Below are positions 43,845 to 64,000 of a stretch of 64,000 nucleotides of DNA, piece by piece. How positions within the stretch are numbered: the stretch's first letter is position 1; the number at the start of each line of letters is the position of its first letter. The position numbers and the translations under genes were made by a program. The notes below the pieces were generated by a model. That model ran no database searches and was not told the DNA's origin. It saw only the letters and a list, made by a program, of their open reading frames with translations. Source of the DNA: Rhizophagus irregularis (lineage: Eukaryota; Glomeromycota; Glomeromycetes; Glomerales; Glomeraceae); contig NC_089435.1 of assembly GCF_026210795.1 (NCBI RefSeq), forward strand, positions 62,001 to 126,000. Reading direction: 5' to 3'.

Positions 43845-43876
43845 GTAAGTAGTCACGTGATTACTATTTTAACCAT

Positions 43877-44970
43877 TGAGATCCCCCAATTCCCTCTGTC
43901 ATCAATTTATAGAGTTGCCACATCGAACGGGCATTCTCATGGTCGAACGAACGAATAAACGAACGAACAAACATTTAAACGAACGAACGATCAATTAAAC
44001 AAACAAGTAAATAATCAACGGCATAATTAACAAACAACATAATCAACGGACAACATACAACAACATTCTTGGTTCACGACATAAATAGCGTTAGTAATAT
44101 AAAACATTGGACGATATAAAATAAATTTTACTTCTCTAAATTTTTCCCAAATTATATCCACTTTTACCTTAAATTACAAACTTCAATAGCTCTCGCTACG
44201 AATAATTACTTTTCAAAATTGTATATTTAATTCATCTTAAATTTCCATTTTATTCAATTAAAATTAATTAAGCGAACAGTAATTAAAGTTTAGGGCGAAC
44301 CTATTACCTTTAATTAATATTATACTTCATTAACAAATAATTAAATGAAACTTATATTTTATTGAGTTCTGTGGATGTGAACTGTGGAATTATTTTGAAT
44401 TCCGTTCTCTTTTTATACAAATTTTATGCTACTTTCTATTCTATCTATATACTATCTTTTATGTTCTTTTTACATATTATCTTTGAACTATCTTTCTAAT
44501 ATACTATCTATATTTTAAATACGCTATCTTTTATATATATATTATCTTTTATAATATCTTTGTATAATCTTTTTATATTATCTTTTATATTATAATCTTT
44601 TTATATTATCTTTTATATTATTTTATGTTCTTTAATCTTTCTAACGTTATTTTATATGTTCTTTCAATCCGCTTTAGGTGTTTTGCTTATAATCTATCTT
44701 TTGTGGCTTATAATTATTCTTTCTAATCGTTCTTATTGTTAAAGATCGCTAAGCCCCAATTGATCGACTCTATTTATCCTATTGGTTCTTTGTCAATCAT
44801 TTGATAAATATTACATCATGTAGATCATTACTCTTCCTAAATGTTTATCCTTTTCGGCTAATTATTTATCCATCCACGCCAATTCACAATCAATTTGTTC
44901 GTTCTTAATATTTGGCAATTACATTTGGTGATTGAATTTTATCATCTTTTCATGCTTGATATTTGGCCGT
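43877..44970 (-). repeat. main part of 3' LTR of element 2
   Basis: Reverse complement of the LTR at 54669-55823 with moderate divergence. Ends TGAGATCCCCC (43877, inverse of the LTR 3' terminus) and GGCCGT (44970). A GAACGAACGAAC tract is near 43940. Confidence 0.85.
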
Positions 44971-45933
44971 TGTAGGATAAATAGAGTCGATCAATTGCGG
45001 CTTAGCAATCTTTAATAATAAGAACAATTAGAAAGAATAATTATAAGCCACAAAAGATAGATTATAAGCAAAACACATAAAGCGGATTGAAAGAACATAT
45101 AAAATAATGTCAGAAAGATTAAAGAACGTAAAATAATATGAAAGATAATATAAAAAGATAGTATAAAGATGGAACATAAAAGATAACATGTTAAAAAGAA
45201 CATATATAAAAAAAATTGAAAAGAACATATATAAAAAGATAACATATATAAAAAGATAGTATATTAAAAGATAGCGTATTTAAAATATAGATAGCGTATT
45301 AGAAAGATAATTCAAAGATAATATGTAAAAAGAACATAATATGTAAAAAGAACATAAAAGATAGTATATAGATAGAATAGAAAGTAGCATAAAATTTGTA
45401 TAAATAGAGAACGGAATTCAAAGTAATTCCACAGTTCTCATCCACAGAACTCAATAAAAATATAAGTTAAATTTAATTATTTGTTAATGAAGTATAATAT
45501 TAATTAAAGGTAATAGGTTCGCCCTAAACTTTAATTAATGTTCGCTTAATTAATTTTAATTGAATAAAATGGAAATTTAAGATGAATTAAATATATGCTT
45601 TCGGAAAGTAATAATTCGTAGCGAGAGCTATCGAAGTTTGAAATTAAAGGTAAAAGTGGATATAATTTGGGGAAAATTTAGAGAAGTATATTTTATTTTA
45701 TATCGTTCAACGTTTTATATTACTAACGCTATTTATGTTGTGAACCAAGAATGTTGTTGTATATTGTTGTTGTATGTTGTTCGTTGATTATGTTGTTTGT
45801 TAATTATGCCATTGATTATTTGCTTGTTCGTTTAATTGTTCGTTCGTTCGTTCATTCGTTCGTTCGACCATGGAAATGCCCGTTCGATGTGGCAACTCTG
45901 TAAATTGATGACAGAAGGAATCGGGGGATCTCA
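44971..45933 (+). repeat. 5' LTR of element 1, internally deleted
   Basis: Starts TGTA and continues directly with GGATAAATAGAG. Compared with the 3' LTR, 192 bp (54673-54864) are missing, removed at a 2-bp TA microhomology. Ends GGGGGATCTCA. The deletion may remove U3 promoter sequence. Confidence 0.85.
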
Positions 45934-45952: not shown

Positions 45953-47403
45953 AAAGGAAATGATCATCATCACATGATTATTAATATGAAAATTTAATTT
46001 CGTTAGTAAGTCACTAATAGGTATTATTAATCAATATTTTATTTTAGAATTTATTTTTAGATTTCAGGTTTTGACGAGTTCAAAAGGAACCAATAAATCA
46101 ATAAGGATTTAATCGAGTTAAAAACCTGAAAAGGTGAAAGATTGGAGTTTGTTGTTGTGCAAGTAATCACTTAATTGATAGAAAGCACAAGAATATTTCT
46201 TTCGGGAATAAAGTACCTGAGAAATTTCATAAGGAGATGTGGAAGTTAAAGATGAATTTTGAAATAAAGATTAATAATGTGAGAACACCAATGTATTATC
46301 TGGGGTTCATCTGTGTGGTATGGGTTACCTCTGAGTTTGAATTTTGGATAAATGCTCGAGATTGGAAAATTTTTATTCTTCGACATTAAAGATTATAACG
46401 TATGGGTTACGTCAAATCTGGATACCCAGCTCAATAATGCGCAAATTGCTTTGGGGACGGGGAATGAAGATTGTAAAGACACCTACTATCAAGAAATATT
46501 GAATGGATAAAATAGGACAAACCTGTAAACTATCATGCTTTTACCCAATGGGAAAAAGATAGAGATAAGCCCAGTATAGGTCCACCAATTTGAGGAAAGA
46601 TAAGTTGGTTTAGATTAGTTTTATGGATAGCTGATGACTTTTGGAACTGGATTTCGGAAGGTTAGATTCACCCGTTAAGAGACAAGTCAGCCAACGAAGG
46701 AGGAAAAGATGGATACGTTGTATTGTTACAGGTCCTAGGCTACATTTCAGATGAGGGTTCCTGGTGTAGTGTGCTAGGTCACGCTTTCATTACAGTGTTC
46801 TGTTAAAAGAAGATGAAATAGAAGGATATTTACACATTAACGAGCCGTATAATGAACATTACGTGCAGTATTTAATAATAGAGTAAAATCCGAGAAGAAG
46901 GACATTTATTTGAAAAGAATGACATTTTGCATATTATAGATTAATTTATACAATATAGAATATATAGTAAGAAAGACTTATGTGGACGATAAGAAAGATT
47001 GAAGATTCACAAACTTTAAAAGTTATGAAAATTTTGGAGTTTGTGATATGTGATATGTGAAATTATGGATCACGGTGATAGGAGATAAATTTTAGAATGT
47101 GATATGTGAATTACGAATATCGGTGATAAAAGATAAACTTTGTGGCGCAGTAAAAAACCTCTGCAGTCTGAGGAGATCGTTGACTTAGAATAATTTTTGA
47201 AATTTTAAGGCGCAGTAGAAATTAATAGTAAAATATGGCGTAGCGAATATATAAAACTGGAAGATGGAATCTAAGGATTGAAAGAAGCAATCTATTTAAA
47301 GATAAAAGAATGTTTAGAAGATTGAAAATAGAAACGATAAGAGTGAAATATATATAAAAGGAGGAGAGGTTTTAGTTAAGATTCTGGATGAACGATTACA
47401 ACG
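45953..47403 (+). other. long leader of element 1
   Basis: 1.45 kb without a long ORF between primer-binding site and gag. GGCGCAGTAG-type motifs occur at 47140 and 47210. The last 200 bp are also found, diverged, upstream of the element 2 gag (63768-64000). Confidence 0.6.
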
Positions 47404-50400
47404 ATGGAATGGTACGAAACTTGGAGGGTTGATTACGAAAATCACAAATTAAGACATGATGAAAATATCGGAAATGTGGATATAGACGAATTAAGAGGAG
47501 AAAATATAGCATGTGAAATATGTTATCCAATAGGAGATACACCAGAAGTTTTCAAGAAATTTTGGAAGATATTGCAAAAATTTGAATATACGATAAGAGA
47601 TTATAATGCAGAAACTATAAGAGCGTTATTAAATTTATTAAGTATAGATAGTGAAGAAAGAAATAATTATACAAAGGGAAGGACTAGAGAAGCGTTAGAT
47701 GTAATGGTCGAATCGATAAGATACTTGAAACAACCGGTATTAAGAGAAAAAGGATTAAAGATAATAATAATAGTGATTGCGAACGATTGTATAGAAAATG
47801 ATAAAGAAGATGAAACAATGGACAGATTGATAGGGAATGAAGAATTAATAAGATATGGTTATATTTTGGAAGATTGGGATGTGAATATAAGATTTGGGGA
47901 ATTTTATGAATGGTATAAAGAAGCTATAACAAGTTTTGTAGAATGTAAAGATAGCACTATTAGAAGATACAAAAATATATTATATGAAGAGGCTGAATTA
48001 AAAGAAGATGAGTCAACAGAAAAGATAGAAGCGTTCAAACAAAAGATTAGATTAATGTTACACACAATGCACATAAAAGTTCCTAGACATGGTTGGGGAA
48101 TTAGTAAAGAAATAACTGAAAAAGTTTATGATAAGATTAGGGGATTTGAGCAATTAAATATAGATGAAACAGATAGTGATGACACACCAAGAAGCTATAC
48201 TATAACAGAAACAGACGATGGGGAAGAAGAAAATTTGCCGATTAATAAAAATGAAGAAATGTCAGATGAGGAATCTAATGAATCTAATAATGTTGAAGAA
48301 ACGGAAACGACAAAGATATTTGAAGAAATAATTAGAATGGATTTGAAAAGAATGGGATATGATGTAGAAATAACGGAAATTGAAAGAATAAGAAAATTTG
48401 GAGTAATTGCAAAGATAATAACAACATATGAATTTATGAAGAAATATTTAACAATATGGAATCTTGAAGATGAAGAATTAGATGAGCAAATATTACAATG
48501 GAGAGTTGAAAACACCAAAGAATGCGAAAGATGTGGAACTGAAAGATTAAAGAAAGAATTTAAAATTGGAGAAGAAATTTGCATAGAATGCGAGAAAGAT
48601 GTTGAAAAAGAAAATCCAACAGATGACGAAGAGGAAAGGGAAGAGGATATAAAAGGGCCCGAAATTGGCTCAAGTAAAAAATCAAAAGGCAAAAAGGAAA
48701 ACAAAGAATTGAAGAAAACACCTATAATACCAATAGTACCAGTACCACCAATAAAACTAAAGTTAACGATGGCAGCATCAAGAGATGAAGTCAGAGCAGA
48801 TCTAAGGGCATTAACGATGATTACGCATAATCATGATATTGGGGGAAATTGGAACAATTTAGTACCACCACCAATAACATTGACAGGATTACAAGGAGAA
48901 ATTCAAGCGAATACTAATGCAATAGGAAATTTAAACGCAAACAGGGGGGCTATTGTGGAAATACCAGCATTTTATGGTACCAGTGGAGAAGATCCAGAAG
49001 AATGGGCAGATAAATTTGAGGAGACATTTACAGCGAATGGTTTAGGGAATGATGATGCACAGAGATTTAGAATAGCAAAAGCGAAATTAATGGGAGGAGC
49101 AGCAGATTGGTTAAAGACTGAAGGAGTAAATATTGTCGATTGGAATGTTAATGGAGATCAAAATTTAAGATTAAGAGTAAGAATAATTGGAAAGTATGCA
49201 AGTGATGAAATTAAAGATAGATGGCTAGAACAATTAGAAAAGATTAGACAGGGAGACGAGAATGTGACTCAATACCTCACGAGATTTAAGTATATGTTAA
49301 AGAGAGCGGGAGGTGATGCAGCAGTAGCAGCAAATCAGCAAAAGAGAATTTTTAATAGAGGATTAAAACCAGACTTTACTAAAGACGTAGTAATGGGAAA
49401 TCCAGCAGATTTAAATGCAGCATTTCAGATAGCAAAGAACGTAGAAAGAGGTTTAGAAGCATTAACAGATAAATTACAACCAAAAGAAATTAATGATGAA
49501 CAAAGAAGACAAGAACCTACTGTTCAAGGGAATGTAAGGAATAATAAAGAGATAAGTGTAGATGAATTAGCGGATAATTTTGCGAAGTTACAAATTAAGA
49601 TGTTAGAAGATGAGAATGAAAGATTAAGATATTTAGCGAGTCAGAGTTATAGGCGATTGCCACAAAGAAACCAACCAATACAAAGAAATCAACCAATTCA
49701 AAGAAATCAGTCATTCCAAAAAAGGGTACCAACATGTTTTAGATGTAATAGAGTGGGGCATTATAAGAATAATTGTCCTGAAGAAAGGAATGCAAGAGTA
49801 AATATGATGGACGAGTATTGTGATCAAGAAGAATATGATTATGATGAATATGGATACGAGGAACCACAATATAACGAAATGTACTATACACAAGGTTATT
49901 ACGATGATTATGAAGATAGAGAATTAAATTATTATAATGAATTATACGCAAAAGATAACGCAGTAAAAGGAAGAAGACAAACGAGGAGAACGAGTCCGAT
50001 AGTGGGATATAAAAATAATAATAAAGAAGGAAATTTACAAGAAGAATTAAGAGAAGCGGGAAATAGAATGGATGATAGAAAAATACCAAGTGGAACAACA
50101 ACACCAAGATATACGCCCGAAAGGACAGAACAAAACAATGTACACAGAGATAGTCAAAATTGGGATAATCCAATAGGACCAGAAGACTATAATTATGGTC
50201 GTCGACCCATGACAAAAGACGGAAGATTTTATAGACCAATGTTCACTAGAGAAGGCAAAGTATTTTACCCTGGAATGCGGCAAGATGAATCCGGAAATTG
50301 GGTTAGAACAAAGCCATCAGGAACAGGAAAGCCCAGAGAATATGGACCAAGATTAACTGACGGAATACCACCTTATGATATTGTGGAAGACGTGAAAAAT

Positions 50401-50508
50401 TGTAGAGCGAATATAACATATGGACAATTAATAAATGGGAATAACAAATATCATAAGCAATTGAGGGAAGGAACGTATAAGCCAAGAAGTATAAATGAGA
50501 AAAATTGA
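47404..50508 (+). CDS. gag: Gag polyprotein of element 1, with long N-terminal extension
   Basis: 1034 codons. Residues 1-490 are an extension without gag similarity: it opens MEWYETWRVDYENH, contains EICYPIGDTPEVFKKFW and YILEDWDVNIRF, and has a zinc-ribbon-like pair CERC...CIEC near 374-394. Residues about 515-690 are a retrotransposon gag domain (PAFYGTSGEDPEEWADKF, ADWLKTEG, VTQYLTRFKYMLKRA). About 777-790 is a CCHC zinc knuckle, CFRCNRVGHYKNNC, followed by a Tyr/Asp/Glu-rich tail. It would form the virus-like particle and bind the RNA. It ends at TGA 50506-50508, which is followed by CTA and by protease in the same frame. Confidence 0.9.
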   Translation: MEWYETWRVDYENHKLRHDENIGNVDIDELRGENIACEICYPIGDTPEVFKKFWKILQKFEYTIRDYNAETIRALLNLLSIDSEERNNYTKGRTREALDVMVESIRYLKQPVLREKGLKIIIIVIANDCIENDKEDETMDRLIGNEELIRYGYILEDWDVNIRFGEFYEWYKEAITSFVECKDSTIRRYKNILYEEAELKEDESTEKIEAFKQKIRLMLHTMHIKVPRHGWGISKEITEKVYDKIRGFEQLNIDETDSDDTPRSYTITETDDGEEENLPINKNEEMSDEESNESNNVEETETTKIFEEIIRMDLKRMGYDVEITEIERIRKFGVIAKIITTYEFMKKYLTIWNLEDEELDEQILQWRVENTKECERCGTERLKKEFKIGEEICIECEKDVEKENPTDDEEEREEDIKGPEIGSSKKSKGKKENKELKKTPIIPIVPVPPIKLKLTMAASRDEVRADLRALTMITHNHDIGGNWNNLVPPPITLTGLQGEIQANTNAIGNLNANRGAIVEIPAFYGTSGEDPEEWADKFEETFTANGLGNDDAQRFRIAKAKLMGGAADWLKTEGVNIVDWNVNGDQNLRLRVRIIGKYASDEIKDRWLEQLEKIRQGDENVTQYLTRFKYMLKRAGGDAAVAANQQKRIFNRGLKPDFTKDVVMGNPADLNAAFQIAKNVERGLEALTDKLQPKEINDEQRRQEPTVQGNVRNNKEISVDELADNFAKLQIKMLEDENERLRYLASQSYRRLPQRNQPIQRNQPIQRNQSFQKRVPTCFRCNRVGHYKNNCPEERNARVNMMDEYCDQEEYDYDEYGYEEPQYNEMYYTQGYYDDYEDRELNYYNELYAKDNAVKGRRQTRRTSPIVGYKNNNKEGNLQEELREAGNRMDDRKIPSGTTTPRYTPERTEQNNVHRDSQNWDNPIGPEDYNYGRRPMTKDGRFYRPMFTREGKVFYPGMRQDESGNWVRTKPSGTGKPREYGPRLTDGIPPYDIVEDVKNCRANITYGQLINGNNKYHKQLREGTYKPRSINEKN

Positions 50509-50511
50509 CTA
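50506..50511 (+). promoter_or_regulatory. gag-protease TGA CTA readthrough site
   Basis: Gag and protease lie in one frame, divided only by TGA and then CTA. The identical arrangement exists in element 2 (59797-59792). UGA followed by CUA is a known high-readthrough context in eukaryotes including fungi, so a fraction of ribosomes could make Gag-Pro. Confidence 0.7.
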
Positions 50512-51021
50512 CACTCGGTGGGAACTATGAAAAATGAAGAAAAAAGAACTACAGCAATGAGAACAGAATTAGAAGTTGAAGATCAATTAGTGAATGTAAT
50601 AATAGATACTGGAGCAGCAGTAAGCGTGATAACAGATAAATTAAGAAGAAGATTGAATATACCTATGTTTGAAAAAAGTAAATTTAGATGTACGATAGCA
50701 AATGGGCAAAAGATAGCAGCGTTAGAAAAGGCGAATATAACTTTAAGGTACAAAGATGAATTAGAAATACTGAAAGAAGTTGAAGTAATCAATTCAGAAG
50801 AAGAGGATCTAATTTTGGGAAATGACATATGGAAGTTGTATAATGCAAAAATAAATTTTGAAGATCATACCTTAAGAATAGAAGAACAGGGAGAAATAAT
50901 AACAATTCCAGTAGGATATGAAAGAGAAGTAGCATATGAAAGTGAGGAGAGCGAGGACGATGAAGAATATGAAAGCAATGATGAAGGAGAGGTATTCAGA
51001 ATGCACCAGAATTTTAAATAG
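50509..51021 (+). CDS. aspartic protease of element 1
   Basis: About 170 codons after the gag stop; the first ATG is at 50518. The active-site motif is IIDTGAAVSV (DTGA at residues 30-33 from that ATG). The second conserved hydrophobic-Gly motif is LILGNDIW near 98-105. The C-terminal 30 residues are acidic (SEESEDDEEYESNDEGE). It would cut the Gag and Pol polyproteins. It ends TAG 51019-51021. RT lies in the -1 frame, open from 51018, so RT is reached either by a shift at AAATAG or by a new start at ATG 51057; the arrangement is the same in element 2. Confidence 0.85.
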   Translation, partial: LHSVGTMKNEEKRTTAMRTELEVEDQLVNVIIDTGAAVSVITDKLRRRLNIPMFEKSKFRCTIANGQKIAALEKANITLRYKDELEILKEVEVINSEEEDLILGNDIWKLYNAKINFEDHTLRIEEQGEIITIPVGYEREVAYESEESEDDEEYESNDEGEVFRMHQNFK

Positions 51022-51056
51022 AGAGTCTTGGCTCTGAAGAGAGAGAGACGGAAAAG

Positions 51057-52507
51057 ATGCTCGAACCAAGTGAAAAATTTATGCAAAAACTAAGTATAGG
51101 GGAAGTAGAAGAACCAATTTGGGAAAACATGGTAAAATTACTATTAAAATACCAAGATATTTTAGAATATGACGAGGAAATAGAGGGAAGAACAAAAGCA
51201 GCTCAACATGAGATAAAGATAAAAGAGGGGGTAGAACCAATAAAGCAAAGAAGATACAAAGAAACAGATGAAAAGGCAAAATTTATAAGCGAAGAAGTGG
51301 ATAAATTGTTAAAACAAGGAAGGATAAGGAAATCGAAAAGTCCATGGAGTTCACCTGTTACATTAGCAGGAAAGAAAACGGGAAAATATAGATTCTGTAT
51401 TGATTATAGAAAGTTAAACAAGATAACTATAATGGATAGTTTTCCTTTACCAAGAATGGATGAATTATTAGACAAATACAGAAAAGCAAAATGGTTTTCA
51501 AGTATAGATTTAGCGGCAGGATTTAATCAAGTAGAAATGAAAGAAGAAGACAAAGAAAAAACAGCATTTGTATGTTCAAAAGGATTATTTGAGTATAATG
51601 TAATGCCATTCGGTTTAACGAATGCACCAGCAACATTTCAAAGATTAATGGACGAAATATTAGAAGAATACATAAACGATTTTGTAGTAGTATATATCGA
51701 TGATATTATGATATATTCAGAAAATTTGAAAGATCATATGGAACACGTGGAAAAAGTATTAAAGAAGCTACAGGAGAATAATTTAATAGTAAAATTAAAG
51801 AAATGTAGATTTTTGGAAAGAAACATAGAATTTTTAGGACATATAGTAGGGAATGATGGATTAAGGCCAGACGATAAAAAGATAGAAAAGATAAAAGAAA
51901 TGAAGGCACCAACAACGGTGAAAGAAGTAAGATCATTTTTGGGACTTTGTTCATATTACAGAAAATTTGTGAAAAATTTTTCAAAGATAGCAAGACCAAT
52001 AAGTGATTTGAGAAAGAAGGGAATACCTTTTATTTGGGGAAAAGAACAACAAGAAGCGTTTGAAAAATTGAAAGAAAAGTTGATACAATATCCAATATTA
52101 CGACATCCAGATTGGAAGAAAGAATTTCTATTAATAACAGATGCATCAGGAAAAGGATTAGGTGCAGTATTAAGTCAAAAAGATGAAAAAGGAAAAGAAG
52201 TAGTAATAGCATATGCAAGTAGAAGTTTATTACCAGCAGAAGAAAATTATCCGATAACAGAATTGGAATGTTTAGGAATAGTATGGGAATTCAACATTTT
52301 CATAAATATTTGATCGATAGAAAATTTAAAGTAATAACAGATCACAGTGCATTGAAAGGATTAATGAATGCAAAGATACCAAAAGGAAAAAGAGCAAGAT
52401 GGGTAATGGAATTACAACAATATAATTTTGAAGTAATACATAGATCAGGAAAAGAAAACACGAACGCTGACGCGTTAAGTAGGTTATTAAAGATAGTAGA
52501 AGACCAA
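51057..52507 (+). pseudogene. pol: reverse transcriptase-RNase H of element 1, one frameshift
   Basis: RT fingers and palm: CIDYRKLNKIT, SSIDLAAGFNQVEM (catalytic D151), MPFGLTNAPATFQRLMD, and VVVYIDDIMIYS (YIDD at 213-216). A connection follows (GLCSYYRKFVKNFSK). RNase H: LLITDASGKGLGAVLSQ, ELECLGIVW, VITDHSALKGL and NADALSRL supply the acidic residues. The frame breaks at 52285-52287, where GGG stands for GGGG in element 2, and resumes from 52288 in the next frame. The enzyme would copy the element RNA in particles. Typical Ty3/gypsy pol in content and order. Confidence 0.9.
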
Positions 52508-53135
52508 CCAGAAATAGTAATAATCGACGGAGTGGATGGATTAGGGAAAACAAGTATAGTACAAAATTTAATTAAAGAATGGGAAAAGCAAGGATTAAAA
52601 GTAAGATTCAACACTTATAAGAGAAGAAGAAAAGATAAAGACGAATTTTATGAATCAAAGATGGAGACAGAATGGAAATTCAGAAAAGAAGTAGTGGAAC
52701 AAATAAACAGAAGAATGTTAGAATATGATGAAGATACAGATATAATAATTTTAGATAAATCACCATATTGTGAATATTATTATCAAAAGATGAAAAGTTT
52801 TGATAGAGGATTAATTACTCCACATGGAAATCATGAGATAAAAAGAAATATTCAGATTGAAAGAAACAATAGATAAATCAATAGTGATATTTCTAGAAAA
52901 AGATGGCGATGTGTGTTGGAAAAATTACATCGGAAGAGAAACGAAGAAAATGGAAAAGTCATCATACCCAACATTAAAGAAGGACGAATATTTAGACATG
53001 GTTAAGATGTTTGAAGAAAATCAGAGCGTGTACAAAGATACCAAAAGATACAGTCGAGTAAAAGTTAAAAATGACAATAGTAGTTGGAGAAAAGTATTTA
53101 AAGAGGTGGAAAAATGGAGAAAAGTACAGAATTAG
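52508..53135 (+). pseudogene. thymidylate kinase-like P-loop domain in pol, element 1
   Basis: Follows RNase H directly with no linker to speak of. P-loop IIDGVDGLGKTSIVQNL matches the EGxDGxGKTT signature of dTMP kinases. DKSPYCEYYYQ corresponds to their DRYxxSxxAYQ motif. IVIFLEKDGDVC followed by IGRETKKME fits the core strand and the Arg-containing lid. Length, about 205 residues, equals a whole TMP kinase. A two-base loss near 52839 splits this copy; element 2 carries the domain uninterrupted. Predicted role: phosphorylating dTMP or a similar nucleotide to help reverse transcription. This is inference; the Asp in place of Glu before the P-loop and Lys in place of Arg in the DR motif leave substrate open. 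Confidence 0.75.
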
Positions 53136-53138
53136 AAT

Positions 53139-53393
53139 ATGGAACAAATAATAAAAACAACGAATTCAGAAATAGAAGCATTGATTGAAGCATTAAAAAT
53201 TATTCAGGAAGAAATTATCAGATTAAGGGATAAAAACAGAAGGTTAGGTAACATAAAAATTAACGATTGGAACAAAAGGGAAGAATCATCAATTAAAGAA
53301 ATACAGGAGGAAATAATAAAAATAGAGATAGCCATAGGTAGAACGGAAATATACAAAGAAATATTATGGAAGAAAATAATTACAAGAGAATAA
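53139..53393 (+). CDS. small coiled-coil ORF between kinase and integrase
   Basis: 84 codons, highly charged: ALIEALKIIQEEIIRLRD and EIQEEIIKIEIAIGRT predict two helices. It lies three bases after the kinase stop in the same frame and overlaps the integrase start. Most of it is deleted in element 2 (57135-57175). It may be an N-terminal helical extension of integrase reached by frameshift, or dispensable spacer. Confidence 0.45.
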   Translation: MEQIIKTTNSEIEALIEALKIIQEEIIRLRDKNRRLGNIKINDWNKREESSIKEIQEEIIKIEIAIGRTEIYKEILWKKIITRE

Positions 53394-54577
53394 TTGACAA
53401 TATCGAAAAAGAAAATAAGTATGAATTGAAAGAGGGAATTTTATATAGAGTGAAGGGACAAAACAAATTTAGAGTAATCAGGGATTATGAATACGAGGGA
53501 TTAATGTACATGATGCATGATAATGAATTATCAGGACATTTTGAAATAGAAGCGACATTAGATAGAATAAAAGAAAATTATTGGTGGAAAAATATGAAGG
53601 AAGATGTAGAAGAATATGTAAGGACATGTTGGAGTTGTCAAATGAGAGGAAAACCAAGAGGAAAGAACGAGTTAACGTCGATAAAGATAAATGAGCCATT
53701 CGAGATGATTGGGATAGATATAGTTGGACCATTAAAAGAGACAGAAAAGGGAAATAAGTACATTGTAGTAGCAATGGATTATTTTACAAAATGGCCCGAG
53801 GCCGCACCACTAAAAGAAGCTACAGCAAAAGAAGTGGTAGAATTTATTTGGAGAGACATAATTTGTAGACATGGATGTCCAAAGAAAATAATTAGCGATA
53901 GAGGGACTCACTTTAACAATAAAATGATGGAAGAATTAGTAGAAAGATGTGGGATAAATCATAGATTAAGTACACCATATAGGCCACAAACAAATGGTTT
54001 GGTCGAAAGATTCAATAAAACTTTATGCGAAGGATTAGCCAAATTAGGAGAAGAAAATTGGGATAAACATATACCATCTGTATTATTTGCATATAGAACA
54101 AGAAAGCAATCGTCAACAAAAATTAAACCTTTTTACGTAACATACGGGAGGAGAGCGAAACTACCATTGGATAAAGATGAAAATAAAATAACATTAGCTG
54201 ATAGAGTAAAAATATTAATTGAGGAGCTACCAGTAATAAGAAGAAAAATGAAAGAAAATGTGGAAGAAGCTCAAGAGAGACAGAAACAACAACATGACAA
54301 AAGAGGAATTAGAAAACCTAAATTTGAAATAGGAGAAAAAGTATTATTATATGAAGCATGGAGAGAGAAACAATGGTCTGGAAAATTACAGAACAAATGG
54401 AAAGGACCATATTTAATTCACGAAGAATTTGGAAATGGGGCTTATAAACTCAAAGAATTGGACGGAAGAATACTAAAGACACCACAAAATGGGGAATGGT
54501 TAAAGAAATTTTACAATCGAGGGAGATTTACACCAAAAATAGTAATTAAAGGAAAAGAGGTATTCGATAAGACCTGA
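53366..54577 (+). CDS. integrase of element 1
   Basis: 403 codons, first ATG at 53366. HHCC zinc domain H51, H58, C88, C91. DDE core: D118 (GIDIVGPL), D178 (ISDRGTHF) and E214 (NGLVERFN). C-terminal GPY/F module at NKWKGPYLI (347-349) and AYKLKELDG, typical of Ty3/gypsy. Residue 60 is Glu in GHFEIEATL, where element 2 and most integrases have Gly. It would insert the cDNA. The frame is intact. Confidence 0.92.
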   Translation: MEENNYKRIIDNIEKENKYELKEGILYRVKGQNKFRVIRDYEYEGLMYMMHDNELSGHFEIEATLDRIKENYWWKNMKEDVEEYVRTCWSCQMRGKPRGKNELTSIKINEPFEMIGIDIVGPLKETEKGNKYIVVAMDYFTKWPEAAPLKEATAKEVVEFIWRDIICRHGCPKKIISDRGTHFNNKMMEELVERCGINHRLSTPYRPQTNGLVERFNKTLCEGLAKLGEENWDKHIPSVLFAYRTRKQSSTKIKPFYVTYGRRAKLPLDKDENKITLADRVKILIEELPVIRRKMKENVEEAQERQKQQHDKRGIRKPKFEIGEKVLLYEAWREKQWSGKLQNKWKGPYLIHEEFGNGAYKLKELDGRILKTPQNGEWLKKFYNRGRFTPKIVIKGKEVFDKT

Positions 54578-54668: not shown

Positions 54669-55823
54669 TGTAAACGGTCGAATATCAAGTATGAAAAGAT
54701 GATAAAATTCAATCACCAAATGTAATTTTCAAATATTAAGAACGGACAAATTAACTATGAATTGACGTGGATGGATAAATAATTAGCCGAAAAGGATAAA
54801 CATTTAGGAAGAGTAATGATCTACATGATGTAATATTTATCAAATGATTGACAAAGAACCAATAGGATAAATAGAGTCGATCAATTGCGGCTTAGCAATC
54901 TTTAACAATAAGAACAATTAGAAAGAATAATTATAAGCCACAAAAGATAGATTATAAGCAAAACACATAAAGCGGATTGAAAGAACATATAAAATAATGT
55001 CAGAAAGATTAAAGAACGTAAAATAATATGAAAGATAATATAAAAAGATAGTATAAAGATGGAACATAAAAGATAACATGTTAAAAAGAACATATATAAA
55101 AAAAATTGAAAAGAACATATATAAAAAGATAACATATATAAAAAGATAGTATATTAAAAGATAGCGTATTTAAAATATAGATAGCGTATTAGAAAGATAA
55201 TTCAAAGATAATATGTAAAAAGAACATAATATGTAAAAAGAACATAAAAGATAGTATATAGATAGAATAGAAAGTAGCATAAAATTTGTATAAATAGAGA
55301 ACGGAATTCAAAGTAATTCCACAGTTCTCATCCACAGAACTCAATAAAAATATAAGTTAAATTTAATTATTTGTTAATGAAGTATAATATTAATTAAAGG
55401 TAATAGGTTCGCCCTAAACTTTAATTAATGTTCGCTTAATTAATTTTAATTGAATAAAATGGAAATTTAAGATGAATTAAATATATGCTTTCGGAAAGTA
55501 ATAATTCGTAGCGAGAGCTATCGAAGTTTGAAATTAAAGGTAAAAGTGGATATAATTTGGGGAAAATTTAGAGAAGTATATTTTATTTTATATCGTTCAA
55601 CGTTTTATATTACTAACGCTATTTATGTTGTGAACCAAGAATGTTGTTGTATATTGTTGTTGTATGTTGTTCGTTGATTATGTTGTTTGTTAATTATGCC
55701 ATTGATTATTTGCTTGTTCGTTTAATTGTTCGTTCGTTCGTTCATTCGTTCGTTCGACCATGGGAATGCCCGTTCGATGTGGCAACTCTGTAAATTGATG
55801 ACAGAGGGAATCGGGGGATCTCA
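54669..55823 (+). repeat. 3' LTR of element 1, full length
   Basis: 1155 bp, TGTAAACGGTCG to GGGGGATCTCA. The terminal CGTTCGTTCG tract near 55730 and the AT-rich ladder of AAAGATAGTATA/AAAAGAACATA are part of it. Antisense ORFs with Phe/Leu/Tyr-rich peptides inside it are by-products. Confidence 0.88.
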
Positions 55824-55907: not shown

Positions 55908-57134
55908 CTAATCGAATCGAACTCGGGTCTTATCGAATACCTCTTTTCCTTTAATTACTATTTTTGGTGTAAATCTCCCTCGATCGTAAAATTTCTTTAA
56001 CCATTCTCCATTTTGTGGTGTCTTTAGTATTCTTCCGTCCAATTCTTTGAGTTTATAAGCCCCATTTCCAAATTCTTCATGAATTAAATATGGTCCTTTC
56101 CATTTGTTCTGTAATTTTCCAGACCATTGTTTTTCTCTCCATGCTTCATATAATAATACTTTTTCTCCTATTTCAAATTTAGGTTTTCTAATTCCTCTTT
56201 TGTCATGTTGTTGTTTTTGTCTCTCTTGAGCTTCTTCCACATTTTCTTTTATTTTTCTTCTTATTACTGGTAGCTCCTCAATTAGTATTTTTACTCTATC
56301 AGCTAATGTTATCTTGTTTTCATCTTTATCCAATGGTAATTTCGCTCTTCTCCCATATGTTGCATAAAAAGGTTTAATCTTTGTTGATGATTGCTTCTTT
56401 GTTCTATATGCAAATAATACAGATGGTATATGTTTATCCCAATCTTCTTCTCCTAATTTGGCTAATCCTTCGCACAAAGTTTTATTGAACCTTTCGACCA
56501 AACCATTTGTTTGTGGTCTATATGGTGTACTTAATCTATGATTTATCCCACATCTTTCTACTAATTCTTCCATCATTTTATTGTTAAAGTGAGTCCCTCT
56601 ATCACTAATTATTTTCTTTGGACATCCATGTCTACAAATTATGTCTCTCCAAATAAATTCTACTACCTCTTTTGCTGTAGCTTCTTTTAGTGGTGCGGCC
56701 TCAGGCCATTTTGTAAAATAATCCATTGCTACTACAATGTATTTATTTCCCTTTTCTGTCTCTTTTAATGGTCCAACTATATCTATCCCGATCATTTCAA
56801 ATGGTTCATTTATCTTTACTGGCATCAATTCATTTTTTCCTCTTGGTTTTCCTCTCATTTGACAATTCCAACACGTTCTTACATATTCTTTTACATCTTC
56901 TTTCATATTTTTCCACCAATAATTTTCTCTTATTCTATCTAATGTTGCTTCTATTCCAAAATGTCCTGATAATTCATTATCATGCATCATATACATTAAT
57001 CCTTCGTATTCAAAATTCCTGATTACTCTAAATTTGTTTTGTCCTTTCACTCTATATAAAATTCCCTCCTTCAATTCATACTTATTCTCTTTTTCGATAT
57101 TGTTTATTATTCTCTTGTAATTATTTTCTTCCAT
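55908..57134 (-). CDS. integrase of element 2
   Basis: 408 codons, nearly identical to the element 1 integrase, with HHCC (H51, H58, C88, C91), D118, D178, E214 and the GPY module, and the normal GHFGIEATL. It runs five codons further because TGA of element 1 is CGA here (TRVRFD). The upstream 57135-57175 shows the scar of a deletion of about 180 bp relative to element 1. The frame is intact. Confidence 0.92.
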   Translation of the reverse strand: MEENNYKRIINNIEKENKYELKEGILYRVKGQNKFRVIRNFEYEGLMYMMHDNELSGHFGIEATLDRIRENYWWKNMKEDVKEYVRTCWNCQMRGKPRGKNELMPVKINEPFEMIGIDIVGPLKETEKGNKYIVVAMDYFTKWPEAAPLKEATAKEVVEFIWRDIICRHGCPKKIISDRGTHFNNKMMEELVERCGINHRLSTPYRPQTNGLVERFNKTLCEGLAKLGEEDWDKHIPSVLFAYRTKKQSSTKIKPFYATYGRRAKLPLDKDENKITLADRVKILIEELPVIRRKIKENVEEAQERQKQQHDKRGIRKPKFEIGEKVLLYEAWREKQWSGKLQNKWKGPYLIHEEFGNGAYKLKELDGRILKTPQNGEWLKKFYDRGRFTPKIVIKGKEVFDKTRVRFD

Positions 57135-57174
57135 AATAGTTCTTTAATTGATTTTATTTCTGAATTCGTTGTTT

Positions 57175-58553
57175 TCATGCTTGTCTCCATTTTTCCACTT
57201 CTTTAAATACTTTCCTCCAACTATTATCATCATTTTTAACTTTTACTCGACTGTATCTTTTGGTATCTTTATACACACTCTGATTTTCTTTAAACATCTT
57301 AACCATATCTAAATATTCGTCCTTCTTTAATGTTGGGTATGATGATTTTTCCATTTTCTTCGTTTCTCTTCCGATGTAATTTTTCCAACACACATCGCCA
57401 TCTTTTTCTAAAAATATCACTATTGATTTATCTATTGTTTCTTTCAATCTGAATATTTCTTTTTCCATCTCATGATTTCCATGTGGAGTAATTAATCCTC
57501 TATCAAAACTTTTCGTCTTCTGATAATAATATTCACAATATGGTGATTTATCTAAAATTATTATATCTGTATCTTCATCATATTCTAACATTCTTCTGTT
57601 TATTTGTTCTACTACTTCTTTTCTAAATTTCCATTCTGTCTCCATCTTTGATTCGTGAAATTCATCTTTATCTTTTCTCCTTCTTTTATAAGTGTTGAAT
57701 CTTACTTTTAATCCTTGCTTTTCCCATTCTTTAATTAAATTTTGTACTATACTTGTTTTTCCTAATCCATCCACTCCATCTATTATTACTATTTCTGGTT
57801 GATCCTCTACTATCTTTAATAACCTACTTAACGCGTCAGCGTTCGTGTTTTCTTTTCCTGATCTATGTATTACTTCAAAATTATATTGTTGTAATTCCAT
57901 TACCCATCTTGCTCTTTTTCCTTTTGGTATCTTCGCATTCATTAATCCTTTCAATGCACTGTGATCTGTTATTACTTTAAATTTTCTATCGATTAAATAT
58001 TTATGAAAATGTTGAATTCCCCAAACTATTCCTAAACATTCCAATTCTGTTATCGGATAATTTTCTTCTGCTGGTAATAAACTTCTACTTGCATATACTA
58101 GCACTACTTCTTTTCCTTTTTCATCCTTTTGACTTAATACTGCACCTAATCCTTTTCCTGATGCATCTGTTACTAATAAAAATTCTTTCTTCCAATCTGG
58201 ATGTCGTAATATCGGATATTGTATTAACTTTTCTTTCAATTTTTCAAACGCTTCTTGTTGTTCTCTTCCCCAAATGAAAGGTACTCCCTTCTTTCTCAAA
58301 TCACTTATTGGTCTTGCTATCTTTGAAAAATTCTTCACAAATTTTCTGTAATATGAACAAAGTCCCAAAAATGATCTTACTTCTTTCACTGTTGTTGGTA
58401 CCTTCATTTCTTTTATCTTTTCTATCTTCTTATCATCTGGCCTTAATCCATCATTTCCTACTATATGTCCTAAAAATTCTATGTTTCTTTCCAAAAATCT
58501 ACATTTCTTTAATTTTATTATTAAATTATTCTCCTGTAACTTCTTTAATACTT
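57175..58553 (-). CDS. pol: RT thumb, RNase H and thymidylate kinase-like domain of element 2
   Basis: One open frame; numbering is from the ATG at 58494. Residues 1-105: RT connection (FLGHIVGNDGLRPDD, FLGLCSYYRKFVKN). About 106-224: RNase H (LVTDASGKGLG, ELECLGIVWG, TDHSALKGL, NADALSRL). About 234-437: an unbroken P-loop kinase domain with GVDGLGKTS at 240-248, DKSPYCEYY at 315-323, SIVIFLEKDG at 357-366, and the Arg-rich lid IGRETKKME at 374-382. The uninterrupted RNase H-kinase fusion shows the kinase is translated as part of pol. Differences from element 1 are few and mostly conservative, consistent with selection on the domain. Upstream, 58545-58555 has one A fewer than element 1, which separates it from the RT palm frame. 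Confidence 0.82.
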
Positions 58554-59249
58554 TTCCACGTGTTCCATATGGTCTTTCAAATTTTCTGAATATATCATAA
58601 TATCATCGATATATACTACTACAAAATCGTTTATGTATTCTTCTAATATTTCATCCATTAATCTTTGAAATGTTGCTGGTGCATTCGTTAAACCGAATGG
58701 CATTACATTATACTCAAATAATCCTTTCGAACATACAAATGCTGTTTTTTCTTTGTCTTCTTCTCTCATTTCTACTTGATTAAATCCTGCCGCTAAATCT
58801 ATACTTGAAAACCATTTTGCTTTTCTGTATTTGTCTAATAATTCATCCATTCTTGGTAAAGGAAAACTATCCATTATAGTTATCTTGTTTAACTTTCTGT
58901 AATCAATACAGAATCTATATTTTCCCGTTTTCTTTCCTGCTAATGTAACAGGTGAACTCCATGGACTTTTTGATCTCCTTATCCTTCCCTGTCTTAACAA
59001 TTTATCCACTTCTTCGCTTATAAATCTTGCCTTTTCATCTGTTTCTTTGTATCTTCTTTGCTTTATTGGTTCTACTCCATCTTTTATCTTTATCTCATGT
59101 TGAGCTGCTTTCGTTCTTCCTTCTATTTCATCGTCGTATTCCAAAATATCTTGGTATTTTAATAGTAATTTTACCATATTTTCCCAAATTGGTTCTTCTA
59201 CTTTCCCTATACTTAGTTTTTGCATAAATTTTTCACATGGTTCGAGCAT
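58545..59249 (-). pseudogene. pol: reverse transcriptase palm of element 2, ends in frameshift
   Basis: 234 codons covering the RT fingers and palm, including CIDYRKLNKIT, SSIDLAAGFNQVEM and VVVYIDDIMIYS. At MEHVEK the run AAAAA of element 1 is AAAA, so the frame stops four bases later. The remainder of pol continues in another phase from about 58553. Confidence 0.88.
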
Positions 59250-59284
59250 CTTTTCCGTCTCTCTCTCTTCAGAGCCAAGACTCT

Positions 59285-59794
59285 CTATTTAAAATTCTGG
59301 TGCATTCTGAATACCTCCCCTTCATCGTTACTTTCATATTCTTCATCGTCTTCGCTCTCCTCACTTTCATATACTTCCCTTTCGTATCCTACTGGAATTG
59401 TTATTATTTCTCCCTGTTCTTCTATTCTTAAGGTATGATCTTCAAAATTTATTTTTGCATTATATAACTTCCATATATCATTTCCCAAAATTAGATCCTC
59501 TTCTTCTGAATCGATTACTTCAACTTCTTTCAGTATTTCTAATTCATCTTTGTATCTTAAAGTTATATTCGCCTTTCCTAACGCTGCTATCTTTTGCCCA
59601 TTTGCTATTGTACATCTAAATTTACTTTTTCCAAATATAGGTATATTCAATCTTCTTCTTAATTTATCTGTTATCACGCTTACTGCTGCTCCAGTATCTA
59701 TTATTACATTCACCAATTGATCTTCAACTTCTAATTCTGTTCTCATCGCTGTAGTTCTCTTTTCCTCGTTTTTCATAGTTCCCACCGAGTGTAG
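59285..59794 (-). CDS. aspartic protease of element 2
   Basis: First ATG at 59785, 166 codons, in frame with gag across TGA CTA. Active site IIDTGAAVSV, then LILGNDIW, and an acidic C-terminus one residue shorter than element 1. Ends TAG with RT in the -1 frame, as in element 1. Confidence 0.85.
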   Translation of the reverse strand, partial: LHSVGTMKNEEKRTTAMRTELEVEDQLVNVIIDTGAAVSVITDKLRRRLNIPIFGKSKFRCTIANGQKIAALGKANITLRYKDELEILKEVEVIDSEEEDLILGNDIWKLYNAKINFEDHTLRIEEQGEIITIPVGYEREVYESEESEDDEEYESNDEGEVFRMHQNFK

Positions 59795-62700
59795 TCAATT
59801 TTTCTCATTTATATTTCTTGGCTTATATGTTCCTTCCCTCAATTGTTTATGATACTTAGTATTTTCATTTACCAACTGTCCAACTGTTATATTCGCTCTA
59901 CAATTTTTCACGTCTTCCACAATGTCATAAGGTGGTATTCCGTCAGTTAATTTTGGTCCATAAACTCTGGGCTTTCCTATTCCTGATGGCTTTGTTCTAA
60001 CCCATTCTCCAGATTCGTCTTGTCACATTCCGGGATAAAATACTTTGCCTTCTTTTGTAAACATTGGCTTATAAAATTTTCCGTCTCTTGTCATAGGTCG
60101 ATGACCATAATTATAATTCTCTGGTCCTATTGGATTGTCCCAATTCTGTTCAGTTCGTTCAGGTGTATATCTTGGTGTCAATATACCACTTGGTATTTCT
60201 CTATCATCCATTCTATTTCCTGCTTCTCTTAATTCTTCTTGTAAATTTCTTTCTTCATTGTTATTTTTGTATCCCACTATTGGGTTCGTCCTTCTCGTTT
60301 GTCTTCTTGGTTTTACTGCGTTATCTTTTGCGTATAATTCATTATAATAATTTAATTCCCTATCTTCATAATCATCGTAATAGCCTTGTGTATAGTATAC
60401 TTCGTTATATTGTGGTTCCTCGTATCCATATTCATCATAATCATATTCCTCTTGATCATAATACCCGTTTATCATATTTACTCTTGCATTCCTTCCTTCA
60501 GGACAATTATTCTTATAATGCCCCACTCTATTACATCTGAAACACGTTGGTACCCTATTCTGACTTGGTTGATAACTATTCCTATTATCATTATTTAATC
60601 TCCTTCCTCTATCTGATTGATACCTATTCCTATTATCATTATTTAATCTTCTCTCTATATTCGATACCAGTCCTTCTAATTTACTAATTCTTGCCTTTTC
60701 TTCAAATGCTTTAACTAATTCATCCTCATAATTATCGCTCAATGGTTTTGCAAACATATTTTGTCTATTATCATCTTTTCCGATGTCTATTCTCGCACTA
60801 ATTGGTGTACCTATCGCTTTCCTAATAAACTCGTCCTTTGCACCTTCTTCCCTTACTGCTATGTCTATTGCCCCATTTAAGTTCGCTGGGTTTTGTCTTC
60901 TAACTTGATAACCTATTGTTGGTTCTAATCCTTCAATATAAAAATCTACTTGATATTCGTCTGCCAAGGCATGTCCTCTAGTTGCTATTCTTAATATTTG
61001 TCTAAATCTTCTTGTGTATTCTTCAACACTTTCATTTACTTCTTGTCGAGTTTTTCTTAATTCTAGCATTTTCTTTCTTCTAACATCCTCTCTAGTAAAT
61101 CTCTTTTTTATTCTATGTTTTAAATCATTATCATTATCTACATCTGCCCAATTCACTAAGTGACCTGCATTCAATTCTTTCATTTCAATATACCATTGTG
61201 CTGCTGCTCCTCTTAAATGTGCTGCTGCGTATGCCGCTTGTCTTACACCATTAGCTCCTGCTGCTTTTCCGACTGCTGTGAATGCTACCTCAAATTGTCT
61301 AACCCAATCGTTAACATCTTCATCTTCTTTTCCATGAAAGAGTGGTATACTAATTGTTCCTCCTGCTTCATTCCCTGCATTTTCAATCCTATCTATCAAA
61401 CTCGCTCCTACTCCCACTGCTGCATTCAAAGTATTAGCTGGATAACCTAAAGCATTCTCTATTAATCTCTTTACTTGATTCTCTGTTGCCATATTTTCTT
61501 GAAATAAATCTTGTAAATTGTAATCAGATAATTCACTTTCGTTGTCAGAATTTTTAATATTTAATGAACTATTCGTGTCTGAGTTTTGACTTAAGTCGCT
61601 ACCTCCTCTATTTATATCATTTTCAATTTCATCTTCAAACTCATCTTCGTTAAAATTTTCAATATTCTCATCCCATATTTCATCTGGACTTAAGATTTCT
61701 CCAGTTTTTTCTGAATCATCTGTATTATCTTCTTCTGATTCTTCATTATCACTCTTTTCACCACTTTCTTCACTTTCTATTATTCCTGCTTGTTCTTTCA
61801 ACAACTTATTTAACTTTTTCTTCAATTCTTTTTCTGACTCATTTTTATTTTCTTGAAAGATTTCAATGAATTCTTTATCTAAAAGTTCTCCATCTGTATA
61901 TCCCATGCTAGTTAATCTTAACAATTCTTCTTCAGTTATTATTGTTCCGATATCTTCAAAAATCTTTTGTAATCTTTTTACTCGATCATCAATTTCATCA
62001 ATATCTTCTTCTTCACAATCTTTGCATACAGTTTTTCCTAATCTAAACATATAATTCATCCATCTTATTTCGCATCTTTCACACCAAGTTGTATTCTCAT
62101 TTAACCACTTATGAATCTCTCTTCTTAACTCTTTATCTCCTAATTCTATTATTCTCATATACCTTTCTATGAATTCTTCTGTTACCATTATCCGATTATT
62201 AACTCCAAAATTCTTTATTCTTTGAATTTCAGATACATCTATTGTGTATCCTAACTTTTCTAAGTTGTTTTTTAATTCTATTAATTCATCTTGTTCTTCT
62301 TCCCGTATTTCCTGATTACACTCTTCACATCTGCCATTTTCTTCTGATATCATATAATCTAATTTCTGTTTATTGCATCTATTACATATTTTCGTACTCA
62401 AATCCATCCATTCCTTTATGTCTTCAGACTTATCAAATCTTCCTTCCTGAAAAATATAGTATCTTATAAAATCACTTGTTAACAGTATTCCCGTTTCTAT
62501 CTTTTCTTTTATTCCAAATTTCATTATTTCTCTGACGAGCTTTTCTTTTGGGTTTACTATTAGTTGTCTTAATCCTGTCCTTATCTCACTTAATTTCCAC
62601 GTTTTGTCCTCTACTATTATTTCTATTTCTTCTTCGGAATCATATATTTCATTATCTTCTTCTTGCTCTATCTCTATAAGCTTGAATTTTTGTGTTCTTT

Positions 62701-62806
62701 CCATCGCTCCTTTTAACTCTGTTACAATCCATTCTATTACTCCATCATCTATTTTCAATATAATAGAATCTCTTACGTCTATATCTTCGCTATCCTTAAA
62801 TGTCAT
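59795..62806 (-). pseudogene. gag: Gag of element 2, interrupted by TGA
   Basis: From ATG 62806 the frame is open for 927 codons to TGA 60023-60025, where element 1 has CGG (YPGM-R-QDESG). It then stays open to the normal gag end at TGA 59795-59797. The N-terminal half carries two zinc-ribbon-like Cys pairs (CNRCNKQKLD...CEEC near 143-163; CERCEIRW...CKDC near 238-258) and an acidic Ser/Glu region. A gag domain follows (IPLFHGKEDEDVNDWVRQF, AAQWYIEMKEL, EEYTRRFRQILRIA), then the knuckle CFRCNRVGHYKNNC. The gag core is clearly a different subtype from element 1, whereas the stretch from the knuckle onward is nearly identical. Confidence 0.85.
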
Positions 62807-62807
62807 A

Positions 62808-63767
62808 CTATCTGTCAGTTTTTTTTACAGTATCTTCCTGCAAATTCTCTCCCTCAGATAACATCTTTTCGAACCATTCTAATGAATCATTTCCATGATA
62901 CGTATATATTTGTTTACCTTCATATTTGTCATTCCACCAGTACCTGAATCTTTCAAATCTAAGATATAAACTCGTGTTAAAATTCTTTTTCATTTCGTAA
63001 CTTTCTAAGCTATCTTCGCTTTCTGAATCTTCTGGTTCTTTTGTAAAGCCCCTAGTATCTATAAATATTCTTATTATCTTTTGTACCATATTCCTGTGAT
63101 ATTCGTGAACATTTTCTATATCTATGTTCCCATATTCCATATTGGACATTAATTCCTTTACTTTCTTCTCGTTCGTAGCTATTCCTTCTTCTTCATATAG
63201 TAATTCCCTGAATGTCTTTATTGCTCCCATCTTTATTCGTAATGGTTCAACTTCTTTCGATATGATTTTGTACCATTGCCAAAACTTCTCAAACCTTCTT
63301 TCAACATCCCAATCTTCTAAAATATATTTGTGTTCTATTAATTCCAGATTTCCAATCAATCTATCAAATACTTCATTCCCCAGATTTCTTTCAATACAAT
63401 CCCTCACGATCACTAATATGATTGTTCGTAATCCCTTTTCTTTTATTTTCGGTTGTATTCTATATCTTATTGATTCCGTTATTCTATCCATTGTGTCTCT
63501 ACATTTCCCCTTATGTATTGTATCTTCTCTTTCTGAATTATCCATACTTAATAAATCTAATACTCCCTTAATTGTTACATCATTATATATTATTATTGCA
63601 TCTTCAAATTTAAATAATGCGTCCCAAAATTTCTTGAATACTATTGGTTCATTTACTATTGGATAACATAATTCACAATTTAAACATTCGTCCAATTCTT
63701 CCGTTCCTAGTTCGTGTTCCTCTTTATGTGTTCTATATTCGCTTTCCCATTGATGGTACCATTCCAT
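62808..63767 (-). CDS. N-terminal gag-region ORF of element 2
   Basis: 319 codons starting MEWYHQWESEYRTHK, homologous to the first 250 residues of the element 1 gag (shared CELCYPI, VFKKFW, YILEDWDV, RFEKFWQWYK). It ends at TAG 62808-62810, and ATG of the following gag frame begins one base later (TAGTATG), in another phase. In element 1 the equivalent regions are one continuous ORF. Either a frameshift mutation or a termination-reinitiation or frameshift arrangement. No function known for this domain. Confidence 0.7.
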   Translation of the reverse strand: MEWYHQWESEYRTHKEEHELGTEELDECLNCELCYPIVNEPIVFKKFWDALFKFEDAIIIYNDVTIKGVLDLLSMDNSEREDTIHKGKCRDTMDRITESIRYRIQPKIKEKGLRTIILVIVRDCIERNLGNEVFDRLIGNLELIEHKYILEDWDVERRFEKFWQWYKIISKEVEPLRIKMGAIKTFRELLYEEEGIATNEKKVKELMSNMEYGNIDIENVHEYHRNMVQKIIRIFIDTRGFTKEPEDSESEDSLESYEMKKNFNTSLYLRFERFRYWWNDKYEGKQIYTYHGNDSLEWFEKMLSEGENLQEDTVKKTDR

Positions 63768-64000
63768 TGTACGCTTTAGTTAAGTTATTATGAATATCCA
63801 TCCAGAATTTCAATCGGATTCCCATCTCTATATATATATATACATTTTACTCTTTCTATTTTCGATCTTCTAAATATTCTTTTATCTTTAAATAGATTAT
63901 TTCTTCCAATCTTTAAATTCCATCTTTCATTTTTATATATTTACTATGCCATATTTTACTATTAATTTTTACTGCGCCTCAAAATTTCAAAAATTATTCT
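63768..64000 (-). other. leader of element 2, cut by window edge
   Basis: Matches 47170-47403 of element 1 (GGCGCAGTA, AAAATATGGC, TATTTAAAGATAAAAGAAT). Its 5' LTR must lie beyond 64000. Confidence 0.7.

Follow-up and report, generated by a model that had tools for sequence, protein, structure and literature searches.

A kinase domain of the thymidylate and deoxynucleoside kinase superfamily in pol of Ty3/gypsy elements from Rhizophagus irregularis

The 64-kb stretch of Rhizophagus irregularis DNA analysed here (the window; C7:62001-126000 of a 146.7 Mb genome in 32 contigs) contains two related Ty3/gypsy retrotransposons, elements 1 and 2, arranged tail to tail over about 45-64 kb of the window. 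In element 2, RNase H and integrase are separated by a P-loop kinase domain. With very little reservation, we assign this domain in retroelement pol to the superfamily of thymidylate kinases (TMPK) and deoxynucleoside kinases (dNK). Proteins P0002 and P0003, named Rhizophagus irregularis DAOM 181602, are 100% identical to the element 2 domain.

The kinase domain and its place in pol

The features of the kinase region are as follows.

57178..57804 (-): kinase domain of element 2, 209 amino acids (aa), with GVDGLGKTS (P-loop), NTYKRRR, FR..VV..INRR, DKSPYCEYYYQ and the lid residues R146-E147
57175..57177 (-): TGA stop closing the RNase H-kinase frame, directly past the last helix
57175..58602 (-): open frame of RNase H and kinase, 475 codons from stop to stop (Pfam, frame listing)
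55908..57143 (-): integrase frame of element 2 (Integrase_H2C2, rve), apart from the kinase frame
52502..53123 (+): element 1 copy of the kinase domain, with one change of frame

A first-pass annotation of the window had proposed a thymidylate kinase-like domain between RNase H and integrase, in an unbroken RNase H-kinase frame of element 2 and, with a single lesion, in element 1. The location and the open frame (58602-57175, minus strand, 475 codons) are borne out, with the domain at 57804-57178 and the integrase frame starting at 57143, and the motifs quoted at the time, GVDGLGKTS, DKSPYCEYYYQ and IGRETKK, are all present in element 2. The element 1 copy likewise agrees with the earlier description, being split by its one change of frame into two pieces in two frames, 52502-52852 and 52836-53123. 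In element 2 the reverse transcriptase (RT, 59288-58545) and RNase H-kinase (58602-57175) occupy different frames, unlike in many other copies, where RT, RNase H and kinase form a single frame of 706 aa.

The domain in pol does not reflect a chance event, since the same genome yields at least 151 matches to it, three of which lie in the window. These come from 173 candidates, of which 150 were scored, and some are fragments of one and the same copy. Among the 150 matches listed, 131 span at least 190 aa, and 122 of these 131 have no in-frame stop.

Families and purifying selection

Relative to the window copy, the genomic matches fall into blocks of about 96% (family A), 88% (B), 62% (C) and 58% (D) identity. 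The occurrence of the domain in further copies, families and species, for which the first-pass annotation had called, was found in genome and protein searches. A sample of 55 copies (30 A, 12 B, 12 C, 1 D) was read closely. Residues K16, D85, K86, S87, R146 and E147 are invariant in all of them, and the P-loop residue G15 is kept in 54.

The kinase domain is under purifying selection. Its mean pairwise ratio of non-synonymous to synonymous differences (pN/pS) is 0.073 in A, 0.148 in B and 0.102 in C, and a value near 1, which the earlier annotation had named as evidence against its proposal, was not seen. The corresponding ratios for A, B and C are 0.052, 0.045 and 0.073 in RT, 0.143, 0.149 and 0.063 in RNase H, and 0.135, 0.163 and 0.146 in integrase. 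A point that weakens these values is that the copies sampled from the three families were mostly the best-scoring ones, with a bias to intact copies. Between families the kinase dN/dS is 0.07-0.19, at a dS close to saturation.

Exchange of the kinase between families

The kinase cassette is exchanged between families, as follows from the conflict between the kinase tree and those of RT-RNase H and integrase. In protein trees built from 17-19 rows, the kinase groups A with B (97/97), whereas RT-RNase H and integrase both group B with C and E (98/97 and 100/99, respectively). The latter two trees reject A+B, with approximately unbiased p-values (p-AU) that are optimistic, as the groups were defined after the identities were known, and with log-likelihood differences that are still large (p-AU 1e-11 and a difference of 85 for RT-RNase H; p-AU 2.8e-5 and a difference of 54 for integrase). 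The kinase tree rejects B+C (p-AU 1.6e-35) and, less strongly, B+C+E (0.03). B+C without E is also rejected by the RT-RNase H tree (p-AU 4.7e-10), because E joins B there.

At the DNA level (one copy each), A and B are 89% identical over 597 nt inside the kinase, versus 74% in RT-RNase H and 69% in integrase. Constraint alone as the cause of the high kinase identity is rejected by the conflicting trees. The 5' part, comprising most of gag, is also close between the same two copies (86% over 3.1 kb), and hence more than one segment was exchanged. In the integrase tree, two elements that carry no kinase, L039 and L040, join family A (90/88), which they do not in the RT-RNase H tree; this grouping possibly represents a further module exchange.

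Fold and activity of the domain

The predicted fold matches the TMPK/dNK superfamily across the whole domain. Profile searches and structure comparison both return P-loop nucleotide or nucleoside kinases, so that this part of the first-pass proposal stands; the complete lack of such matches, which would have spoken against it, was not seen. The narrower identity as a thymidylate kinase is tentative, given the tie with dNKs in the structure comparison, a PF02223 score of the window copy below the cut-off and DK in place of DR in the conserved motif. The domain shares with cellular thymidylate kinases (S. aureus TMK, human TMPK and the gene on contig C13 of the same genome) the fold, a GVDGxGK-type P-loop, the D-[RK] motif and the lid arginine, and with E. 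coli TMK also the YQ after the D-[RK] motif. It differs from them by an identity of only about 12%, by DKS for DR[YH] and by its fusion to RNase H or integrase.

Several observations weigh against a thymidylate kinase. The structure comparison does not separate TMPK from dNK: dCK, dGK and the Giardia dAK are tied with TMK. The window protein scores 18.8 bits (domain) and 20.5 bits (whole frame) against PF02223, where the cut-off is 27 bits and is passed by the relatives P0038 (30.2 bits) and P0088 (29.4 bits). On the window copy AAA_14 scores equal to Thymidylate_kin (both E 0.0014), and the best NCBIfam match, dTMP kinase (E 2e-4), spans residues 5-43 only. In some relatives another P-loop family passes its own Pfam cut-off and Thymidylate_kin does not (P0025, NB-ARC; P0043, cobW; P0045, AAA_28; P0116, KTI12). 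For P0050, Thymidylate_kin is missing altogether from the matches at E <= 0.01. The DR[YH] motif of thymidylate kinases is replaced by DKS in 55 of 55 copies. When the family profile was compared with PDB sequences, the best match was the SRP receptor FtsY, with thymidylate kinases only at E >= 0.03. Kinship with FtsY was dropped, as the alignment centres on the P-loop and the residues leading up to it and is read as a common-motif match.

The strongest alternative, which we nevertheless regard as unlikely, is a deoxynucleoside kinase that phosphorylates nucleosides in salvage and not monophosphates. Besides the structural tie, the DKSPYCEYF stretch resembles DRTPLSSYF in the dNK encoded by the same genome. 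Taken alone, this dNK reaches the highest probability in profile comparison (96.7 over 92 columns), and the fold and a [DE][KR][ST]xx[SC]-like motif are common to the domain, human dCK and this dNK, encoded on contig C28. PF01712 spans the relative P0036 from end to end, although weakly (E 0.0026). It stays below its gathering score of 27 in all three relatives that show it (18.0, 18.6 and 20.8 bits), and is not among the matches of the window domain at E <= 0.1. The P-loop differs as well, being GVDGxGK as in TMPK, while the three dNKs compared have GxIGxGK. The glutamate of the ExxxW region, which we take to be the catalytic residue of dNKs, has no acidic counterpart in the retroelement family, where NTFKRRR is aligned in its place (an uncertain alignment at about 12% identity). 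This stretch is basic, like the FPER/REPG stretch of TMPK in the same low-identity alignment, and therefore favours a monophosphate acceptor.

On balance, the domain is likely to be catalytically active, with a nucleotide or a nucleoside as substrate. We lean towards a monophosphate over a nucleoside as its acceptor, and dTMP in particular can be named only tentatively.

Slightly less probable again than a deoxynucleoside kinase is a domain that is no longer metabolic and instead serves as a structural, RNA-binding or 5'-end (polynucleotide) kinase component of the particle or integration complex. The fusion partner of the kinase varies, being RNase H in some families and integrase in another, and the relative P0119 weakly matches a phage polynucleotide kinase family (E 2.6e-4). 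A purely structural role, however, would not need K16, D85-S87 and R146, kept in all 55 copies, and polynucleotide kinases are absent among the 50 structures listed, which does not exclude them. A frozen passenger, that is, a host kinase gene once inserted in a retroelement and carried along without function, would fit the broken frame of element 1 but is highly improbable given pN/pS values of 0.07-0.15 within families, open frames in separate families at about 58% identity, the exchange of the cassette and the presence of the domain in three fungal species.

Distribution, host kinases and origin

Database searches returned 55 related proteins (of 554 candidates) and, in a second search, 94 (of 8000 scored). 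The only organisms named among them are R. irregularis, R. clarus and Glomus cerebriforme; the remainder are mostly unnamed metagenome proteins, including kinase-only frames of 264 aa. Proteins joining kinase and integrase occur in R. irregularis and R. clarus. Some relatives bear the automatic UniRef and JGI names 'thymidylate kinase' or 'thymidylate kinase-like', which show no link to retroelements.

The most distant relatives found, P0052 and P0119, are NUDIX-kinase fusions from metagenomes. They belong to the same kinase subfamily as the retroelement domain (FR..VVQ..NRR, DKSPYSE..YQKT) but differ in the NUDIX fusion, and no retroelement domain was found in either protein. Scans of IMG/VR with the family profile A2, P0119 and P0052, sensitive to short exact patterns and close relatives only, and a short-pattern scan of prokaryote genome contigs with P0119 gave no relative, nor did phage records at E 1e-5. 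At E 10, phage records gave partial matches only, mostly to phage kinases, and P0119 at E 1 likewise gave only partial matches, in the main phage kinases together with NUDIX proteins, among the 25 listed of 40.

The genome encodes its own TMPK (C13) and dNK (C28), so that the activity is not in principle missing from the cell, a point that counts against a need for the element kinase. Neither is a close donor: the intron-bearing C13 gene is of the human type and far from the element kinase, and the putative host dNK on C28 is also distant. The latter (L037, C28:1224005-1224616) is an open frame of 336 aa in which about 130 N-terminal residues precede a clear deoxynucleoside kinase domain. The genome also holds another thymidylate kinase-like gene (L036, C24:3288271-3288729), which has the P-loop GCEDTNTT without the Walker lysine and is possibly a dead or regulatory paralogue.

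In a full-text search of openly available articles, no title among those listed concerned a nucleotide or nucleoside kinase in a retrotransposon or retroelement. The term 'thymidylate' is absent from the main text, as far as accessible, of two R. irregularis transposable-element papers, and 'kinase' from the accessible portion of a survey of fungal LTR (long terminal repeat) elements.

Production of integrase and Gag-Pol

In families A, B and C the kinase forms the end of the RT-RNase H frame, and in family D (L033) it stands at the head of the integrase frame, which begins MGPKIIIICGVDG. The linker between RNase H and kinase has 75-80 residues in the B and C copies L031 and L032, and almost none in the A copy L034. 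The spacer between kinase and integrase is specific to the family, with 32-52 nt in A (24 of 30 copies), 472-507 nt in B (12 of 12) and 127-133 nt in C (11 of 12); in element 2 the integrase ATG follows about 44 nt past the kinase stop. All 50 measurable copies of the 54 fetched (A 26, B 12, C 12) have at least two stops in the kinase frame ahead of integrase, which is in the same frame as the kinase in 28 and in another in 22, the same frame being commoner in A and C. Single-stop readthrough or a simple frameshift was rejected for the integrase of A-C on account of these stops and the varying frame relation. Translation of integrase from its own start, or from an RNA that has been spliced, is likelier.

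Gag and protease (PR) are related differently. In L031-L034, one copy from each of the four families, a single stop in TGA CTA C parts two regions in the same frame. The window copies have the following signals.

59785..59797 (-): TGACTACACTCGG before the protease frame of element 2, TGA stop then CTA
50506-50518 (+): TGACTACACTCGG at the gag-protease junction of element 1

UGA-CUA is a strong readthrough context. Because the single stop lies in TGA CTA C, Gag-Pol is probably made via readthrough.

Proposed role and comparison with known systems

The reading we favour, if only by a modest degree, is that a Ty3/gypsy group of arbuscular mycorrhizal fungi (Rhizophagus, Glomus) carries a catalytic TMPK/dNK-superfamily domain that phosphorylates deoxynucleoside monophosphates for reverse transcription. 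Being tied to RNase H or integrase, the kinase would be made as part of Pol and would enter the virus-like particle. There it may convert deoxynucleoside monophosphates to diphosphates, dTMP being the first candidate, and a host diphosphate kinase would perform the last step to dNTPs. Reverse transcription in hyphae or spores that are not dividing would then not be held back by the dNTP supply. Given the TMPK and dNK genes of the genome itself, the need would be local or fall in stages with low deoxynucleotide levels; a similar argument has been made for dUTPase in non-dividing cells (PMC2864245). We give even chances to a wider proposal, an exchangeable metabolic cassette in which an undescribed 'DKSPY' nucleotide kinase subfamily is packaged with RT or integrase, passes as an exact domain between gypsy families that compete within one fungal genome, and supplies deoxynucleotides in the particle.

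A-richness alone does not explain the kinase. The coding strands 47392-54577 (+) and 55908-63779 (-) are purine-rich (A 0.45, G 0.22, C 0.09-0.10) in even-stranded surroundings. With about 45% A in the coding strand, first-strand DNA would need much T. The kinase-less gypsy group of L039 and L040, in the same genome, has about 49% identity in RT and about 40-63% identity over PR, RT, RNase H and integrase; the two copies give no kinase match at E <= 1, and in L040 RNase H and integrase are about 200 nt apart. By hand comparison among the matches listed, none of 21 RT matches at 46-53% identity has a kinase match inside 5 kb. The A fraction from PR to integrase is 0.49 in L039 and L040 and 0.44-0.46 in five kinase bearers. 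The nearest kinase-less group is thus the more A-rich one and yet manages with no kinase, which counts against our proposal and against the simple rule that an AT-rich genome needs dTTP.

dUTPase is known in fungal Ty3/gypsy elements, namely PosPlaTy3 of Postia placenta and others in Phanerochaete and Tuber, and these resemble the present elements in having an added nucleotide-metabolism domain whose position in Pol varies by family; there dUTPase lies at either Pol end or between PR and RT (PMC2864245), while in the copies examined here a P-loop kinase lies between RNase H and integrase. By this analogy, the retroelement kinase would be a counterpart of the dUTPase domains. The Pfam matches of seven window frames include no dUTPase family. 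Retroviruses and lentiviruses with dUTPase in pol are likewise similar in carrying a nucleotide-pool enzyme as a pol domain, with a different enzyme, fold and hosts.

Retroelements are considered dependent on the host for deoxynucleotides, dUTPase being the main known exception among pol domains. If the assignment is true, no nucleotide kinase would have been known before in retroelement pol, and an important symbiont of plants would offer a case open to testing. Several families retain the domain under selection, which suggests that some retrotransposons are limited by their nucleotide supply, and a single-domain exchange between retroelement families is demonstrated. Several gene models now named as host genes, such as '1-phosphatidylinositol 4,5-bisphosphate phosphodiesterase-like', are parts of these elements.

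Layout of the two elements

The assignment to Ty3/gypsy (Metaviridae) rests on the order gag - PR - RT - RNase H - integrase with matching domain families (Pfam gag with Ty3 capsid and zinc knuckle, aspartic protease, RVT_1, RT_RNaseH and integrase with H2C2 and rve) and on the LTRs of element 1, which are 99.7% identical over 961 nt. Element 2 extends past the window edge and inside the window has no 3' LTR of its own. The remaining features are listed below.

62808..63779 (-): element 2, N-terminal part of the long gag frame, joined to gag as one frame in the full copies L032 to L034
60023..62824 (-): element 2 gag (Retrotrans_gag, Ty3_capsid, zinc knuckle; Pfam)
59285..59794 (-): element 2 aspartic protease frame (Pfam)
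58545..59288 (-): element 2 reverse transcriptase (RVT_1), in a frame different from RNase H in this copy
44973..45933 (+): element 1 5' LTR, 5' part missing, 99.7% identical to its own 3' LTR over 961 nt
47392..50508 (+): gag frame of element 1, with TGA CTA at its end
50509-51021 (+): element 1 PR, in the frame of gag
53342..54577 (+): element 1 integrase frame, an inverted copy of the element 2 integrase at 95% identity
54673..55823 (+): element 1 3' LTR, adjoining the 3' end of element 2

A single LTR (54673-55823), oriented as element 1, thus lies between the two elements and abuts the 3' end of element 2. At 43876-45933 the 5' LTR of element 1, lacking its first part, is fused to an inverted LTR copy.
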